NCBI GenBank assembly: GCA_021162615.1
Contig: JAGGYH010000140.1
Coordinates: 1 to 44,576, forward strand
DNA: 44,576 nt
DNA from: Candidatus Aminicenantota bacterium
GTDB taxonomy: Bacteria > Acidobacteriota > Aminicenantia > Aminicenantales > Aminicenantaceae
Direction of reading: 5' to 3'
The position numbers and the translations under genes are program-made. Below the pieces are notes generated by a model. It made no database searches. It was not told the DNA's origin and saw only the letters and a program-made list of their open reading frames with translations. Shown one piece after another: positions 4,436 through 44,576 of the stretch. How positions within the stretch are numbered: the stretch's first letter is position 1; each line of letters opens with the position of its first letter.

Positions 4436-5764
4436 ATGGAAGATTCACATAAATTAAACCCATGGATTCGTATCCAAAAGAAAATCAAAAATAAAATTGA
4501 TAAAAACAGTTTTGAGACGTGGTTCGGACCCACCTTGTATATAGGACAGGAAAAAAACGCTCTTTATATAAAGGTCCCTAACTCCTATTTCAGAGACTGG
4601 CTCTCTTTCCACTATTCCGGCCTTATCAACTCCTCCTCTAAAGAGTTGTTTGATAAAGTTTATGACATTAAATATATTTTTGATGACTCCTCTTCGTTCA
4701 TGCGGCGGAGCCCGAGAGAGAGAAGGTCTAAAGACGGATATCTTTTAAATCCCAATCTTAATCCTAATTATACATTCGATAATTTCATAGTAGGTTCATG
4801 CAACCAATTCGCTCAGGCTGCGGCTTCATCTGTATCTCAAAACCCGGCAAAATCCTATAATCCTTTATACATCTACGGAGGAGCAGGCCTGGGAAAAACA
4901 CATCTTATGAACGCGATCGGTCATGAAAGCCTGAGAAGTAAAAGAGGCATGAAAATCCTTTATATGACAACAGAGAAATTTATGAATGACCTTATAACCC
5001 ATCTTCAATACGGAAAGGTCATGGACTTCCGCGAAAAATACAGAAATATAGACCTCCTTCTAATGGATGATATTCATTTCCTTTCAGGAAGGGAGAGAAC
5101 AAAAGAAGAATTTTTTCATACTTTCAACCATCTCTATGAAAACCAGAAACAGATCGTCATCTCAAGCGACTGCCCTCCAAAAGAAATCCCCAATATAGAA
5201 GAAAGATTCAGCTCAAGATTTGAATGGGGTCTTATAGCAGACCTAAAACCGCCTGATATAGAAACGAGAATTGCCATATTAAGGAAAAAATCACAGATAG
5301 AAGGTGTTTATCTTCCTGAAAGCGTGGCCCTTTTTATTGCTGATAAAGTGCATTCGAATATTCGGGAGCTGGAAGGATTTCTCAGGCGAGTGATCGCGTA
5401 TTCCTCCTTGAAAGGACAGCCCATTGATCTGGAGCTTGCCAAAGAATCCCTGAAAAGTCTTCTTGATTCAACCGAACATATCATCACGATTGAAAAAATA
5501 CAAAAATTTATTTGTCATGAATATAAGATGGGGCTTAAAAAATTAAAATCAAAGAACAATTCCCCTAAAATCTCTTTTCCCCGCCAGATAGCCATGTATC
5601 TATCAAAACACCTTACTAAATCCTCTCTTCCTGAGATTGGAAAAAAATTCGGTGGAAAACACCACACTACGGTCATCCATAGTATAAGAAAGATAGAGAA
5701 ATTAAGAGAGACTAACAGAAGTTTCGACAAGAAAATCACAAGGATGATTCATTCTATAAGATAA
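4436..5764 (+). CDS. dnaA: chromosomal replication initiator DnaA
   Basis: DnaA binds DnaA boxes at the origin and opens the duplex as an ATP-bound oligomer. From ATG 4436 it has 442 residues, normal for the family. An N-terminal DnaB-interaction domain is followed by the AAA+ core with Walker A GGAGLGKTH (148-156), Walker B LLMDDIHFL and the sensor region RFSSRFEWGL. The C-terminal helix-turn-helix carries the signature GGKHHTTVIHSIRKIE. An upstream in-frame GTG at 4403 would place the DnaA-box-like sites inside the coding sequence. The ATG is preferred because GAGGG precedes it at good spacing and the protein then starts like other DnaAs. dnaN follows, the classical origin arrangement. Confidence 0.97.
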   Translation: MEDSHKLNPWIRIQKKIKNKIDKNSFETWFGPTLYIGQEKNALYIKVPNSYFRDWLSFHYSGLINSSSKELFDKVYDIKYIFDDSSSFMRRSPRERRSKDGYLLNPNLNPNYTFDNFIVGSCNQFAQAAASSVSQNPAKSYNPLYIYGGAGLGKTHLMNAIGHESLRSKRGMKILYMTTEKFMNDLITHLQYGKVMDFREKYRNIDLLLMDDIHFLSGRERTKEEFFHTFNHLYENQKQIVISSDCPPKEIPNIEERFSSRFEWGLIADLKPPDIETRIAILRKKSQIEGVYLPESVALFIADKVHSNIRELEGFLRRVIAYSSLKGQPIDLELAKESLKSLLDSTEHIITIEKIQKFICHEYKMGLKKLKSKNNSPKISFPRQIAMYLSKHLTKSSLPEIGKKFGGKHHTTVIHSIRKIEKLRETNRSFDKKITRMIHSIR

Positions 5765-5877: not shown

Positions 5878-6978
5878 ATGAGGTTCTCAATCAAAAAAGA
5901 AAATATTTTTACAGAACTCCAACTTCTTCAGGGAATTGTTGAAAAAAGGAATACAATGCCCGTTCTTGCTCACATCCTGATAGATGCGGGTAAGGATCGG
6001 GTGGAGTTGATTGGGACAGACCTGGAAGTAGGACTTAAGACTTATATAGAAACCAAGGTTGAAGAACCAGGCGCCGCAACCATATCTGGTAAAAAGATCT
6101 ATGAAATAATCAGGTCCCTTCCAGATGGAAAGAACGTCACATTTTCACTAATAAACGAGAAGATGATCGAAATATCTTCAGGAGCCAGCCAGTTCAAGGT
6201 TCTTTGTAAGGCCAAAGATGACTATCCACAGGTTCCAGAGGCAAGGTTTGAGAAAAATATCATTCTTCCTCTGGATAAATATACAGAAATGATAAACCGG
6301 GTCTATTTTGCCATAACTCAAGAACAGAGATATTATCTCAATGGAGCTTTAATGATTCTCAAAGGAGACCAGATCGAGCTGGTCAGTACAGACGGACACA
6401 GGCTTGCTTATACATCTTCAAAAATAGAAAACATGGATATTCATGAAGAGATCAATGGAATCGTATCCAAGAAAACACTTGGCGAATTAAGGAAATTCGA
6501 AGATAAAGAGATTAAGTTTGACTTGGATGAGAGTAATCTGTTCTTTAATGTAAAAAACAGAACGCTGATTTCCCGTATCATAGAGGGGAAATTCCCAAAT
6601 TATAATGCGGTCATTCCTAAAGACAATCCCAATATTCTTATTTTTTCAAGAGAAGAAATCACAGATGCTATAAGAAGGGTTTCTCTTTTGTCTACGGAAC
6701 GTTCCAAAGGAATTAAGTTAAAATTAGAAAAAGACAAAGTCGAACTTTTCTCCTCTAATCCAGAACTCGGGGAGGCGCGTGACCAGGTTGAAACAGAATA
6801 CAGCGGGAATAAATTTGAGATCGGATTCAATTCTCAGTATATTCTAGATTTTTTAACGACCATACAGTCGGAGAATGTCAGGTTTGAAATGAAAGACTCC
6901 AACAGTGCCGTTCTTATGGCTCCGGAAGAGGAAAATGAAATAGAATACAAATATATTCTCATGCCCATGAAGCTTTAA
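5878..6978 (+). CDS. dnaN: DNA polymerase III beta subunit (sliding clamp)
   Basis: The beta clamp encircles DNA and tethers the replicative polymerase. The 366-residue product has the usual three-fold repeated clamp architecture: LPDGKNVTFSLINEKMIEI in domain 1, STDGHRLAYT in domain 2, and the C-terminal EYKYILMPMKL that matches the canonical ending (YLIMPMRL type). The ATG at 5878 is preferred over GTG 5869 because AAGGTGG lies 5 nt upstream of it. It is the second gene of the dnaA locus and converges with apbE, leaving only 9 nt between stop codons. recF and gyrB do not follow here. Confidence 0.97.
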   Translation: MRFSIKKENIFTELQLLQGIVEKRNTMPVLAHILIDAGKDRVELIGTDLEVGLKTYIETKVEEPGAATISGKKIYEIIRSLPDGKNVTFSLINEKMIEISSGASQFKVLCKAKDDYPQVPEARFEKNIILPLDKYTEMINRVYFAITQEQRYYLNGALMILKGDQIELVSTDGHRLAYTSSKIENMDIHEEINGIVSKKTLGELRKFEDKEIKFDLDESNLFFNVKNRTLISRIIEGKFPNYNAVIPKDNPNILIFSREEITDAIRRVSLLSTERSKGIKLKLEKDKVELFSSNPELGEARDQVETEYSGNKFEIGFNSQYILDFLTTIQSENVRFEMKDSNSAVLMAPEEENEIEYKYILMPMKL

Positions 6979-6987
6979 CCATAGAAG

Positions 6988-7914
6988 TTATTTTATCAGC
7001 TCTATATCAAACTCTTTCCCAAAGAAAAAGATTTCACCGTCATCATTGACTATAACCGCACCATAGTCAGGATATTTTTTTAGAATATTTTCTGGTTCTT
7101 TAGAAACAAAAAGAGCGGTAGAAAGCGCATCACAGAAAAGGACCTCGGGCCCCATAACAGTAACACTTTGTTTTCCTTTTGCCGGATAACCGGTTGAAGG
7201 GTCAAAAATATGATGGTATCTTACTCCATTTTTAATAAAGAATCGCTGGTAGTCTCCGGATGTAGCTGCCCCCTGGTCCATAAGATGAAGGATGCCGAGA
7301 AAACCTTCTTTTCTGGGATGCTTTATCCCGATTTTCCAATCATTATTCTCCGGATTTTGACCCCAGCAGAAAATATCTCCTCCTGCATTTAAAAAGCCTT
7401 TCTGGATGTTCATCTTCCTGAGAGCCTGTGAAGCAAGGTCCACTCCATACCCTTTGGCAATACCGCCCCAGTCCAGTTTCATCTGCTCCGGAAGAATGAC
7501 TTCATCGTTTTTTATCTGGATTTTATCCATCCCCACGAGTTTTATCAATCCGTTTATTTCTTCCGAAGAAGGCACTCTGTAATGCCCGCTCAAAAATCCC
7601 CATGCCTCTTTGAGCGGACCTACTGTGATGTCAAAACACCCGTACGTATTTTTATAGATTTTCAGGCTTTCCCTTAAAAGATACTGAACATGACTGGATT
7701 TCAGGTCTGTTTTTTCAGGAGAAAAAAGCTCTTCTATGGATGAAAATATTTTTTCAACTTCCTTTTTTACTTGAGAGAATTCCGGAGAAGAGCCAAAGAC
7801 TCTCAGTTCACAGACCGTATCGAAAAACACCAATGTGGATGAGTGCCAAGTCTTTTGCGGACCGCAGTTGAACGCAAACACAACGACCAGAATCAAGACA
7901 CCGTATTTTTTCAT
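6988..7914 (-). CDS. apbE: FAD:protein FMN transferase (ApbE), lipoprotein
   Basis: ApbE attaches FMN covalently through a phosphoester bond to Thr/Ser in RnfG, RnfD and related proteins outside the cytoplasmic membrane. The 308-residue product has a short signal with a lipobox-like FAFNC (Cys17), so it is probably membrane-anchored in the periplasm. Family motifs are present: WGGIAKGYGVDLA (149-161), LNAGGD (175-180), HHIFDPSTGYPA (234-245) and a metal-binding CDALSTALF near 261-269. Its substrates are probably the RnfG and RnfD encoded 10 kb away on the same strand, an inference from pathway knowledge. It stands alone here, facing dnaN. Confidence 0.93.
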   Translation of the reverse strand: MKKYGVLILVVVFAFNCGPQKTWHSSTLVFFDTVCELRVFGSSPEFSQVKKEVEKIFSSIEELFSPEKTDLKSSHVQYLLRESLKIYKNTYGCFDITVGPLKEAWGFLSGHYRVPSSEEINGLIKLVGMDKIQIKNDEVILPEQMKLDWGGIAKGYGVDLASQALRKMNIQKGFLNAGGDIFCWGQNPENNDWKIGIKHPRKEGFLGILHLMDQGAATSGDYQRFFIKNGVRYHHIFDPSTGYPAKGKQSVTVMGPEVLFCDALSTALFVSKEPENILKKYPDYGAVIVNDDGEIFFFGKEFDIELIK

Positions 7915-8011
7915 ATATCCGGAACTTTCTTTTTTATTTCAAAGATTTAGAAGAAGATCAAATCAATTTTCCAGAAACAGGCCTCATTTATTATACTGGA
8001 TTTATCTTTAA

Positions 8012-8039
8012 TTGACATATATATTGTTTGTATTATAAA
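8012..8039 (+). promoter_or_regulatory. promoter of the sugar/nucleoside cluster
   Basis: TTGACA (8012-8017) followed after 16 nt by TATAAA (8034-8039). It lies in the 174-nt space between the divergent apbE and the MFS transporter gene and reads toward the transporter. Motif match only. Confidence 0.5.
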
Positions 8040-8088
8040 TTTTTACGTATATCAAGACGGAAAGGAAAAACAAAATCACGAGGGAAAC

Positions 8089-9294
8089 ATGAGTTATAAA
8101 ATCCGACTTGGTTTTATGATGTTTTTACAGTATGCGATTTGGGGAGCCTGGGCCCCGGTATTATCAGAATATCTGATCAACAACCTGGGATTTACCGGAA
8201 CTCAGGTCGGTCTTGTTTATGCTCTTCTTCCTTTAGCGACCATTATCTCCCCTTTTCTTGGAGGGCAGATGGCTGACAGGTATTTCCCTACCGAAAAAGT
8301 CATTGCTTGTTTACAGCTTAGCGGGGGGGCTATCCTTATTTATACGTCCTTTGTTTCCGATTACCCTACCATGATGTGGCTTATATTTCTCTATTCCCTT
8401 TTATACGCACCTACATTAGCTCTCACCAATTCCATAGCCTTTATAAACTTGAAAGATTCCGAAAAGGAATTCGGCATCATCAGGGTGTGGGGAACCATCG
8501 GCTGGATCGCCGCAGGACTCATTTTAGCGGGATGGAGGATGCTGGCGAACTCTCAAGAGGCACTGGCATTCAGAGGGGATACGCTGATGCTCGCAGGGAT
8601 TTTCTCTCTTATCATGGGGGCTCAGTCTTTCTTTTTACCCCATACTCCTCCTAAAAAGGAAGTCAAAAAACCGTGGGCTTTTCTGGAAGCCATTAAGATG
8701 CTGAAAGACAAGAACCTGGCGATTTTTGTGGGGATCGCCTTTGTAGTGGCTACAGAGCTTCAGTTTTATTACATTCTGACCGCTCCCTATTTGACTTCAG
8801 GGGCCATAGGAATCGATGCTTCAATGGTTTCCGGTGTCATGGTCATTGCCCAGATCGCCGAAATATTTGTCATGGCGATTCTTCTTCCCTATTTTCTTCC
8901 CAAGTTCGGTATTAAAAAGACCATGATTATAGGGGTTTTGGCATGGCCGGCCCGCTATATAATCTTTGTGATCGGCCAGCCTGTATGGTTGGTTATTGCC
9001 TCCCTGTCTCTCCATGGGTTTTGCTATGTGTTCTTTTTTACGGCTGCATTTATATATATAGACCAGGTGGCGCCAAAGGATATAAGAGCTTCGGCACAGA
9101 GCCTAATCTCCATTGTGACCTTAGGGCTGGGTAACTTTCTGGGAAGCCTTTTTGCGGGATGGATACAGACCCTTTTCACTGGAGCAGACGTGACTGACTG
9201 GAGAAGTGTTTTTATCATTCCGGCAGTTTTAACCATTCTCTGTGCGGTCGCCTTTATTTTGCTTTTTAGAGAGAAGAAAAAAATCAATGTATAA
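8089..9294 (+). CDS. MFS transporter, nucleoside:H+ symporter (NupG/XapB-like) family
   Basis: A 401-residue protein made almost entirely of hydrophobic segments, consistent with 12 transmembrane helices. The N-terminus MFLQYAIWGAWAPVLSEYL and the loop GGQMADRYFPTEK fit the nucleoside H+ symporter branch of the major facilitator superfamily. The start is preceded by GAGGGAAAC. It is the first gene of a cluster with a Gfo/Idh dehydrogenase and a TIM-barrel/DUF1080 lipoprotein, so its real cargo may be a sugar or glycoside instead of a nucleoside. That reassignment is inference from context. Confidence 0.85.
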   Translation: MSYKIRLGFMMFLQYAIWGAWAPVLSEYLINNLGFTGTQVGLVYALLPLATIISPFLGGQMADRYFPTEKVIACLQLSGGAILIYTSFVSDYPTMMWLIFLYSLLYAPTLALTNSIAFINLKDSEKEFGIIRVWGTIGWIAAGLILAGWRMLANSQEALAFRGDTLMLAGIFSLIMGAQSFFLPHTPPKKEVKKPWAFLEAIKMLKDKNLAIFVGIAFVVATELQFYYILTAPYLTSGAIGIDASMVSGVMVIAQIAEIFVMAILLPYFLPKFGIKKTMIIGVLAWPARYIIFVIGQPVWLVIASLSLHGFCYVFFFTAAFIYIDQVAPKDIRASAQSLISIVTLGLGNFLGSLFAGWIQTLFTGADVTDWRSVFIIPAVLTILCAVAFILLFREKKKINV

Positions 9295-20993: not shown

Positions 20994-21425
20994 AGATGTG
21001 GCTTGTGCTTTTAACCTTCATCAGGCAAGCTGGTTCTTCAGCCCGCTGATTTTCCCCGGCGAGTAAAATCAGCTTATTCCTCGTCTCGCTCCCCTCTGCG
21101 AGGAACCATGCCCGCTCGCCTGCGGATGACTTCAGAACCAGCCTGCCTGCCTGAAAGTCTGGATGAGGCAGAGATCTTATTTATCTTATTGGAAAAGCGG
21201 ACTACTTATGAAAATCAGGTGTGGTTGAAGCGATTTTAAAGATTTAGCCTTCGGAGTGCTGTGTTTGAGGGAACTCAGCGAAGCTGAGCTTCGAGCATGT
21301 TTGACCCACGGACGGGGGGAGTTGCGCAGAAGCCGAGAATACAGCATGAAGAATGGCGCTAAAAATCTTTAGTGAGCACAAGCCACATCTTATTTTCATA
21401 TCGGCGGGTTTTATGAATAACCAGG
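20994..21425. repeat. structured dispersed intergenic element (copy B, apparently full length)
   Basis: This fills the 448-nt gap between the GNAT gene and polA. A perfect 16-nt inverted repeat marks the outer limits: AGATGTGGCTTGTGCT at 20994-21009 and AGCACAAGCCACATCT at 21375-21390. Nested inside are GCTGATTTT/AAAATCAGC (21045-21053/21065-21073), an imperfect roughly 20-bp pair built on CAGGCAAGCTGGTTCT near 21022 and AGAACCAGCCTGCCTG near 21132, and CTCAGCGAAGCTGAG near 21274. The right part matches 1-126. The edge reads TTTATGAATAACCAGG just beside the polA stop. Non-coding; mobile or RNA-structured. Confidence 0.75.
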
Positions 21426-38640: not shown

Positions 38641-38859
38641 ATTTATAGGGGACAGACCCGGCTATCTTCCCTATTTCCATATAATTACGACACTTTTCCA
38701 CAGTTAGTTACAGTTTAAATCGATGATTTTTAGGCCCAAAATTAAAAGAAACTAAAGGAACTGGATGATAAAGGGGAATTCGTATTGATTGTTTTTTGAT
38801 AGGGGAGGAGGATTCTAGAATGCGAACGACACGCTGATCCTGGGAATGAGCATATCCGT
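38641..38859. repeat. 219-bp direct repeat, copy 1
   Basis: It aligns to 43879-44097 with no gaps and only about four mismatches. It covers the 3' flank and last 14 codons of the barrel-protein fragment. It begins with TAGGGGACAGACCCGG, a short motif also found in variant form at 36748 and 40612. This copy is in the natural context of the barrel gene, so it is probably the source. Confidence 0.9.
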
Positions 38860-40334: not shown

Positions 40335-40349
40335 CTTTTTAGGGGGATG

Positions 40350-40373
40350 CCCATTAGAAGGCGGCTGTCAAGA
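40350..40373. repeat. 24-nt sequence duplicated at 43855-43878
   Basis: An identical 24-nt stretch centred on TTAGAAGGCGGCTGTC occurs at 43855-43878, where it forms the first piece of the intergenic patchwork. The surrounding 40335-40571 interval has no gene I can support. Confidence 0.85.
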
Positions 40374-40571
40374 GGATAGACAAAATCATTCATAATAATT
40401 ATATTATCAGTACAGTAAATATGTGAGTTAATCTTGGAAACTCGGATGTGCCCGATATTTCGTGATAAGAGGATGCAGTAAGTTCTGCTCCAGACACCCA
40501 TAGGGATCAAGGCACAAGGATGCCCCTGGCACACAAAGGTGCCCCAGAAAACGATCGGTACCATGCCATGT

Positions 40572-40997
40572 CTAAGAGAGGGATATAACAGATCCATGGT
40601 TTGTTCCAGTCCTGTCCCCAAATAAAATATCGGCTTCCTTTTCAGCTTCGGAAGGGGATCGGCATATCACTGCTTCATAGCCATGCTCTGATTTTGAGAT
40701 GTTTTGCATATCCACCCCTCCCTCCCCGGAAACGATTCTGATGACCTTTCCCACCCCGGTTTCTACGGCGGCCTCCATGGTTTTGCTTATAATTTTATTC
40801 ATGCCTTCGCCGCTGGGATTGTATTCTCTCACATCGGATATCGCAATGTAACCGGGCTTTAATTTCCCGGCTTCCCTTCGCAGATCATCGTGCAGTGCGG
40901 CGATATCCTTTTCAGTCAGAACTCCCTTCAATGTCGTATACAAACGGTTTTTCTCGACATCCGCCCGGACGGATACCTCTTTTTCATCCGTTTTCAT
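40572..40997 (-). CDS. STAS-like (SpoIIAA-type) small protein
   Basis: 141 residues, cytoplasmic. Alternating strands and helices (NRLYTTLKGVLTEKDIAALH, GYIAISDVREYNPSG, KVIRIVSG, YEAVICRSPSEAEKEADILF) fit a STAS-like fold, similar to anti-sigma antagonist domains. No obvious phosphorylatable Ser in the canonical place. It starts 8 nt after the MBL enzyme gene, and its ribosome site GAGGTG overlaps that gene's stop. After ILFG the last 14 residues read through the repeat-like GGGGACAGGACTGG, so the original stop may have been lost. Confidence 0.65.
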   Translation of the reverse strand: MKTDEKEVSVRADVEKNRLYTTLKGVLTEKDIAALHDDLRREAGKLKPGYIAISDVREYNPSGEGMNKIISKTMEAAVETGVGKVIRIVSGEGGVDMQNISKSEHGYEAVICRSPSEAEKEADILFGDRTGTNHGSVISLS

Positions 40998-42703: not shown

Positions 42704-43513
42704 ATGGACGCTTTCAGCATTGTCGAAAATGAGTTGGAGAGCCTTCAAACAAAGCCTCACCGGCTGCTTGAAATCGGTGCCGGATCCGGGGACTTTCTAA
42801 AGAAGCTCACAAAACAATATCAGGCTGAAGGCGTTGGAATCGATCCCTTTGCCCATGAAGCCCCGCAGGATAACCCGAGGCTCTATAAGAAAACCGCCGA
42901 AGAAGTAGGCTCTCTGCGCCGCTGGTTTGATGTGGTGTACAGCATCAGGGCTTTTCACCATTTTACAGAACCCGGGCGGTGTTTAAAGGCGCTTCGTTCT
43001 GTTCTCGCCTGGGGCGGCCGCTGTCTCCTTGTGGATTGGCACGAAGGCGCTTCAACAGGCTATCCTGAATATTATTACTCCATGGAAGAAGCCTCTGAAA
43101 TGATGGAAAAAGCGGGGCTTCATATATTGAAAAGGAAACGATTCGGCGATCTGTTCTTGATTTCAGCCACACTGAATTCCTGGCGCGTGGCTGTGGCGGC
43201 CGACTCTACAGGCGGCATAATCTTTCAGAAGATGTTCGGACAGGCCCCACAATTTCAGGTTTACAGCCTTTCCCTGAGCAGCAAGCCTCAGCTTGTGGAA
43301 ACACGCCGCAATCCTTATGAAAAGACCCTTCAACATGAAAAAACATTCGACGTCTATAAACTGGTAAACGACTGCCCGATTCTTGTGTCTTCAAGAATCG
43401 GCAAAAGAGGTATCTCCCGGCTGGAAAAAATGGGAGTCACACTGATATTCAAGCAGGGGCCGATCAGCTCCTTTTTAACCTCTGATTTCCTAGAAAATCC
43501 GTTTGTGCTATAA
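42704..43513 (+). CDS. class I SAM methyltransferase fused to NifX/NifB-type cofactor-binding domain
   Basis: 269 residues in two parts. Residues about 1-155 are a Rossmann methyltransferase: motif I LLEIGAGSGDFLKKL (21-35), VVYSIRAFHHFTEPG and ALRSVLAWGGRCLLVDW. Residues about 160-258 match the dinitrogenase Fe-Mo cofactor-binding fold (Pfam Nitro_FeMo-Co): RVAVAADSTGGIIFQKMFGQ, then APQFQVYSL, and SRIGKRGISRLEKMG. NifX-type domains hold iron-sulfur metalloclusters. A methyltransferase fused to one is unusual. The next gene is a DUF59 protein, known from Fe-S assembly, which supports a role in metallocofactor handling, by inference. Target unknown. Confidence 0.75.
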   Translation: MDAFSIVENELESLQTKPHRLLEIGAGSGDFLKKLTKQYQAEGVGIDPFAHEAPQDNPRLYKKTAEEVGSLRRWFDVVYSIRAFHHFTEPGRCLKALRSVLAWGGRCLLVDWHEGASTGYPEYYYSMEEASEMMEKAGLHILKRKRFGDLFLISATLNSWRVAVAADSTGGIIFQKMFGQAPQFQVYSLSLSSKPQLVETRRNPYEKTLQHEKTFDVYKLVNDCPILVSSRIGKRGISRLEKMGVTLIFKQGPISSFLTSDFLENPFVL

Positions 43514-43541
43514 TAGCAAAGCTTTTGAACAGGAGGTCAAG

Positions 43542-43841
43542 ATGTCTCAGATAACGCAAGAAGATGCTCTCAAAATAGCGGCACAGGTGATGCATCCGGC
43601 CATTGACAGAAACCTGGTCGACCTAGGCATTGTCAAAGATATAGAAATCAAGGGGACCCATGCGACCGTCACATTCGCCTTCCCCGCTCTCAATATTCCA
43701 ATTGCAGACCAGCTCATCGGCAGCGTGCGTAGCATATTAGAGAAGCAGGGATTAAGCGTTGACCACCAGGTCACGGTGATGAGCCAGCCCGAGCTCCAGT
43801 CTTTCCTGGCCATGGAGCAGGCCGCCTGGAAAGGATTGTAG
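43542..43841 (+). CDS. MIP18/DUF59-family protein (SufT-like)
   Basis: 99 residues from ATG 43542, with AGGAGG 5 nt upstream; the longer frame from 43503 overlaps the previous gene and is unlikely. The core HPAIDRNLVDLGIVKDIEIKG and VTFAFPALNIPIADQLIGSV fits DUF59, seen in SufT, PaaD and the N-terminus of Mrp/ApbC Fe-S carriers. The conserved Cys of the usual GCP motif is replaced (PALNIP). It lies 28 nt after the methyltransferase-NifX gene and is probably co-transcribed. Confidence 0.82.
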   Translation: MSQITQEDALKIAAQVMHPAIDRNLVDLGIVKDIEIKGTHATVTFAFPALNIPIADQLIGSVRSILEKQGLSVDHQVTVMSQPELQSFLAMEQAAWKGL

Positions 43842-43854
43842 ATCTCCGGGGTCA

Positions 43855-44147
43855 CCCATTAGAAGGCGGCTGTCAAGAATTTGTAGGGGACAGACCCGGC
43901 TATCTTCCCTATTTCCATATAATTACGACACTTTTCCACAGTTAGTTACAGTTTAAATCGATGATTTTTAGGCCCAAAATTAAAAAAAACTAAAGGAACT
44001 GGATGATAAAGGGGAATTCGTATTGATTGTTTTTTGATAGGGGAGGAAGATTCTAGAATGCGAACGACACGCCGATCCTGGGAATGAGCATATCCGTGCT
44101 TCCCTTCGCAGATCATCGGGCAGTGTTTAAAGGCACTTCGTTCTGTT
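43855..44147. repeat. patchwork of four abutting direct copies of nearby sequence
   Basis: Pieces in order: 43855-43878 = 40350-40373 (24 nt, identical); 43879-44097 = 38641-38859 (219 nt, about 4 mismatches); 44098-44125 = 40870-40897 (28 nt, 1 mismatch, from inside the STAS-like gene); 44123-44147 = 42979-43003 (25 nt, 1 mismatch, from inside the methyltransferase gene). All keep the same orientation. The pieces touch or overlap by 3 nt. It fills most of the gap between the DUF59 and histidine kinase genes and encodes no gene of its own. Confidence 0.9.
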
Positions 44148-44200
44148 GCCGTTATGCAGCATGCATAAAAAAACTTACTTGAAAATCTTCAAGGAGACGG

Positions 44201-44576
44201 CTATTTGCTAACTGAAAACTCAACCTTAAAAGAGGTACCGCCATTGCGGTCAAGCTCAATTGTTCCGTCAATCTGTCTGGTTAAGTCATTTACCATCTGC
44301 AGCCCTAATGATTGGGCCTTGCGAAAATCTATATCTTCAGGGAAACCAATGCCGTCATCGCTTACGACAAGAGTAATCATACCCTTTTTATCAGAATAAA
44401 GCTTTATGCAAATTTCGCCTTTTTTCCCTTCAGGAAAAGCATGCTTTATTGAATTAGATAAAAGCTCGTTGGCAATCAATCCACATGGAATCGCCCGATT
44501 GAGGTCAAGAAAAACTTCCTCCAAATCAGTCTTAAGTGCAACAATATTTGAATCGACACCGTAAGAATGATAAATA
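44201..44576 (-). CDS. sensor histidine kinase, C-terminal part (cut by window edge)
   Basis: The frame is open to the window edge, so only the last 124 residues or so are seen. They form the ATPase domain of a HisKA_2/HWE-like kinase: AIPCGLIANELLSNSIKHAF (N box), VVSDDGIGFPEDIDF (G1 box), SLGLQMVNDLTRQIDG (G2 region) and GGTSFKVEFSVSK at the end. Such kinases phosphorylate response regulators. Sensor domains and partner lie outside the window. The patchwork repeat ends 53 nt after its stop codon. Confidence 0.88.
   Translation of the reverse strand, partial: IYHSYGVDSNIVALKTDLEEVFLDLNRAIPCGLIANELLSNSIKHAFPEGKKGEICIKLYSDKKGMITLVVSDDGIGFPEDIDFRKAQSLGLQMVNDLTRQIDGTIELDRNGGTSFKVEFSVSK

Follow-up and report, generated by a model that had tools for sequence, protein, structure and literature searches.

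The window, i.e. the whole stretch of DNA analysed, comprises 44,576 nt from a Candidatus Aminicenantota bacterium. It contains an intergenic patch of approximately 300 nt (43848–44147), a mosaic of small direct copies with sources in the preceding ~5 kb. The patch is flanked on the left by the stop of a small FeS_assembly_P-type gene (43503–43841) and on the right by the stop of a histidine-kinase-like gene on the minus strand (44201 onward). The features of the region are as follows.

38641–38859 (+): source of block 2
40343–40620 (+): long copy of dispersed repeat E1, 90% to C51:4008–4278, with ends GGGGAT...GTCCCC
40870–40897 (+): source of block 3
42973–43003 (+): source of block 4
43848–43878 (+): block 1, the outer 31-nt tip of dispersed repeat E1 (GGGGTCACCCATTAGAAGGCGGCTGTCAAGA)
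43879–44097 (+): block 2, a 219-nt copy of 38641–38859, consisting of repeat E2 and the 3′ end of a minus-strand membrane-protein-like ORF
44098–44125 (+): block 3, a 28-nt copy of 40870–40897, within the minus-strand ORF 40572–40997
44117–44147 (+): block 4, a 31-nt copy of 42973–43003, within the methyltransferase gene 42704–43513
44158–44190 (+): foreign-looking piece, 91% to C98:21056–21088 (minus strand)
44191–44576 (−): 3′ part of the histidine-kinase-like gene (HATPase_c), a 97% copy of C131:11115–11500, at the right edge of the patch

All four copied blocks are genuine and well beyond chance. Positions 43855–43878 of block 1 are identical to 40350–40373 (24/24). Block 2 aligns with its source at 98.2%, with four mismatches and no indels; the mismatches, at positions 43883, 43986, 44048 and 44073, are all transitions. 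The block 3 alignment extends over 44090–44125 and 40862–40897 (89%) and has a core at 44098–44125 that matches at 27 of 28 positions, and block 4 shows 94% (29/31) with one further transition at 44135. Comparison of the window with itself gives raw scores of 48, 418, 52 and 52 for the four copies, against a top score of 37 among 2000 random 350-mers compared with the same 5.8-kb neighbourhood. Thus the four direct-orientation blocks of 24, 219, 28 and 25 nt described in an earlier note on this DNA are all present, and the few base differences it recorded between source and copy are borne out by the transitions in blocks 2 and 4. Its statement that two blocks come from inside genes is also correct, as blocks 3 and 4 have their sources in the ORF and the methyltransferase gene listed above, and these source loci still sit within ORFs present in the window. 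The block sources are 1–5 kb from the patch; elsewhere in the 44.6-kb window the self-comparison yields almost no short local copies.

The 31-nt tip of E1 (GGGGTCRCCCATTAGAAGGCG..TGTCAAGA) is found at 43848, at C51:4008, at the end of C57, and at the left end of the long copy 40343–40620. Tips with ~90% identity are also present in three related genomes, G034 (two), G026 and G005, and in the aligned E1 copies the match begins at the same GGGG end. Block 1 had been assigned to a source at 40350. The 24/24 match stands, but the block is really 31 nt long and displays a higher identity to C51:4008–4038 (94%) than to 40343–40373 (90%). Because block 1 is a conserved E1 tip that is closer to C51, its source need not be 40350 and is not established; it may have been inserted earlier, in an unrelated event. 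The right end of the long E1 copy (40572–40620) encodes the last codons of ORF 40572–40997, and insertion seems to have altered the C-terminus of this protein.

E2 makes up the opening ~60 nt of block 2 and has further copies on other contigs, C102 and C29 among them. On C102, a Y1_Tnp (PF01797) gene at 7820–8149, one of two such genes in the genome, has E2 copies to its left and right; these copies, at 5155, 7059 and 8383, are all on the plus strand and hence direct. The E2 match does not extend into the right half of block 2, and the block runs ~115 nt beyond the repeat into the gene end. Since the E1 tip and E2 recur elsewhere, blocks 1 and 2 each have a repeat end as their left edge. The earlier claim that ordinary insertion sequences or repeats were not responsible for the patch thus needs to be qualified, as mobile repeats do contribute.

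E2 shares the defining features of REP/RAYT elements only in part. As in REP/RAYT (PMC2817692), it flanks a Y1_Tnp gene and has an imperfect GGG...CCC palindrome at its start, and the likeness extends to the patch copy of E2, which reads GTAGGGGACAGACCC. However, the GT(A/G)G head is not conserved in E2, where the patch copy alone reads GTAG and other copies read ATAG or otherwise, and the copies around the Y1 gene are direct, unlike the inverted flanking copies of REP/RAYT. Of block 2, the likeness accounts for no more than the leftmost ~100 nt.

The junctions in the patch are near-blunt, with 0, 0 and 3 exact shared bases. Blocks that abut or overlap by only 3 nt had been described; the three exact bases are confirmed, but blocks 3 and 4 in fact share a 9-nt imperfect overlap with two mismatches (donors CGTGCAGTG and CGGGCGGTG, patch CGGGCAGTG). 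In this segment (44117–44125) a base of one donor precedes a base of the other donor in the patch, so that a single switch is insufficient there without further mutation. No strong hairpin was found at the block 3/4 junctions beyond those in shuffled sequences.

The junctions also bear on the possibility of a chimeric assembly, the alternative offered in the earlier note, or of a chimeric library molecule. The window is from a 146-contig assembly, and the contig ends 430 nt rightward of the patch, inside a repeated gene. With only 0–3 exact bases at the junctions, however, there is no overlap through which an assembler could have joined reads, and the transitions that separate copies from sources, four in block 2 and one further in block 4, are scattered over the copies. 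A chimera is disfavoured on these grounds and is regarded as highly improbable; misassembly of the patch appears very unlikely.

The mosaic extends to the right of block 4, where 10 nt without a match (44148–44157) are followed by the C98-like 33 nt and then by the C131 copy, which from 44191 reaches the ends of both contigs. A search for a source of 44148–44191 in the rest of the duplicated tract gave matches no better than those of shuffled sequence. The duplicated end of the histidine-kinase-like gene (44191–44576 and L055:11115–11500, 97%) breaks at the same base in both contigs, and several paralogues are present in G003. A further mosaic lies at L055:10990–11114, to the left of the second kinase copy, where the short start of an IS110-like gene gives way to ...GTGTCCCC / ...ATGTCCCC fragments.

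Stretches totalling 1.07 Mb (37.5% of the genome) were sampled. Seven two-copy local pairs were found in this sample, two of them in the patch, and blocks 3 and 4 are present there in two copies each and no more. Ten other tiles in the 1.07 Mb have at least three local donors, each including many-copy repeats, and no other site in the sample mixes three local sources with two-copy pieces. The loci L109, L111, L121, L131 and L136 show intergenic-looking tiles of repeats, with up to tens of copies in the sampled third.

Blocks 2, 3 and 4 have the same order and orientation as their sources (38641 < 40862 < 42973), with skips of ~2.0 and ~2.1 kb between them. Random, independent donors would give such an order and orientation in about 1 of 48 cases. 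This agreement ties blocks 2–4 to one tract copied forward, either by replication or as the remnants of a duplicate. Thus the picture of four pieces from four places is replaced by three blocks collinear with a single 4.4-kb tract, together with the end of a dispersed repeat (block 1).

A chain of template switches, as previously suggested, is still the best account, although four independent jumps are unneeded given the collinearity of blocks 2–4. The patch may be the scar of faulty local DNA synthesis, with one step back and then forward skips along the same template, a tentative reading whose probability falls just short of even. In this process, a DNA end in replication or repair, close to the repeat tip (43848–43878), would re-enter the template ~5.2 kb back, at the E2 end (38641). 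After 219 nt had been copied from there, a forward skip of ~2.0 kb would be followed by copying of 28 nt, and a second skip of ~2.1 kb by copying of ~25–31 nt and rejoining of the sequence now at 44148 and beyond. The repeat ends may have stalled or broken the fork. One event and this direction of synthesis are inferred; as no relative with an empty site was found, several events would fit the patch as well as one. A step back with skips fits better than jumps to unrelated sites, since order and orientation in blocks 2–4 follow those of the sources. On the other hand, two junctions lack the 2–5 nt microhomology expected of the mechanism, which may count against template switching. End-joining is argued against by Ku (PF02735), which was not detected in this genome, but the genome is 93% complete and its absence is therefore not certain. 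A more specific version, i.e. a single repair event in a wild bacterium that went back to a mobile-repeat end and made ~2-kb forward jumps on the same template, perhaps tracking lagging-strand fragments, is rather unlikely. If true, this single-event reading would provide a readable nucleotide-scale record of serial template switching.

The main rival to template switching is an eroded tandem duplication, in which the segment from 38641 to ~43878 was duplicated and at least three later deletions left 219, 28 and ~25 nt of the second copy. Such a history accounts for the collinearity and direct orientation of the blocks as well as template switching does, since both would follow automatically, the similarly low divergence across all pieces is consistent with such an origin, and relic islands do occur in this genome (39 + 90 nt on C99, 87%–90%). 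However, a 5-kb perfect tandem repeat would usually be expected to collapse by RecA recombination before three large deletions can take place. In addition, two such short islands (~28 and ~25 nt) with two ~2-kb gaps represented 0.03%–0.7% of the end states in an erosion simulation, a crude toy model with criteria set after the data had been seen. Erosion of a duplication is a possible but doubtful origin. Template switching that stepped back once and then skipped forward in a single event would not depend on an unstable 5-kb tandem repeat. The relics on C99 (L138:5596–5634 and 6589–6678) are of the neighbouring gene L138:9017–9427; their order is that of the source, another gene lies between the two, and they are most simply remnants of a decayed paralogue.

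Independent captures are also consistent with the repeat ends that open blocks 1 and 2, with the presence of two Y1_Tnp genes, and with the continuation of the mosaic into the C98-like piece and the C131 copy. Here E1 and E2 would have been inserted or mobilised by Y1-type transposases together with some flanking DNA, and blocks 3 and 4 would be separate short-patch captures of local single-stranded DNA. Such an origin is unlikely: it needs separate hits at one spot that are nevertheless in source order, block 2 continues past the repeat into the gene end, and no target-site signature was identified. In Acinetobacter baylyi, short-patch double illegitimate recombination reportedly puts short stretches of the cell's own DNA into unrelated sites with which they share little sequence; the patch, by contrast, holds three pieces in source order at a single spot, and one of these is 219 nt long.

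Template switching finds parallels in E. coli, where complex amplification junctions have been attributed to repeated template switches, among them a pair of direct switches producing a partly deleted direct duplication (PMC3161906), and where models of long-distance template switching and MMBIR are available (PMC2621351). Shared with the patch are lengths of nearby sequence at a new junction, several junctions together, direct-orientation switches with skipped stretches, and the sufficiency of short matches. The E. coli cases, however, are selected kilobase amplifications, while the patch is a fixed intergenic 300-nt scar with pieces of 25–30 nt and mostly blunt junctions. The patch is most likely a known kind of mutation accident and not a new genetic system. 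Serial local template-switch footprints have been well documented both for human genomes and for selected E. coli amplifications; few are known from natural bacterial intergenic DNA. Scanning for collinear mini-copies beside repeat ends could measure the frequency of such events outside the laboratory. The patch alone is a mutation scar without known function, and the explanation given here implies none.

Other identities for the patch were considered. The earlier note had proposed checking if the 293-bp block is a common repeat; a search of the assembly yielded no second full copy, and a multi-copy block is ruled out. No match was found in the phage collection, the window has no Rfam match, and no tandem repeats were found. 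An empty site was sought in relatives, but the flanking genes were not found at a comparable locus; in a scan of genome contigs the sole match was a 39% relative of the methyltransferase. Two further repeats were seen elsewhere. A perfect 27-nt direct repeat (L081:1293–1319 and 1934–1960) flanks ~610 nt, partly dispersed repeat, at a gene end, and resembles an unusually long target duplication. In the window, positions 2–126 and 21281–21405 form an 85% direct repeat pair that is also similar to L081:1650–1740 and probably belongs to a dispersed family.
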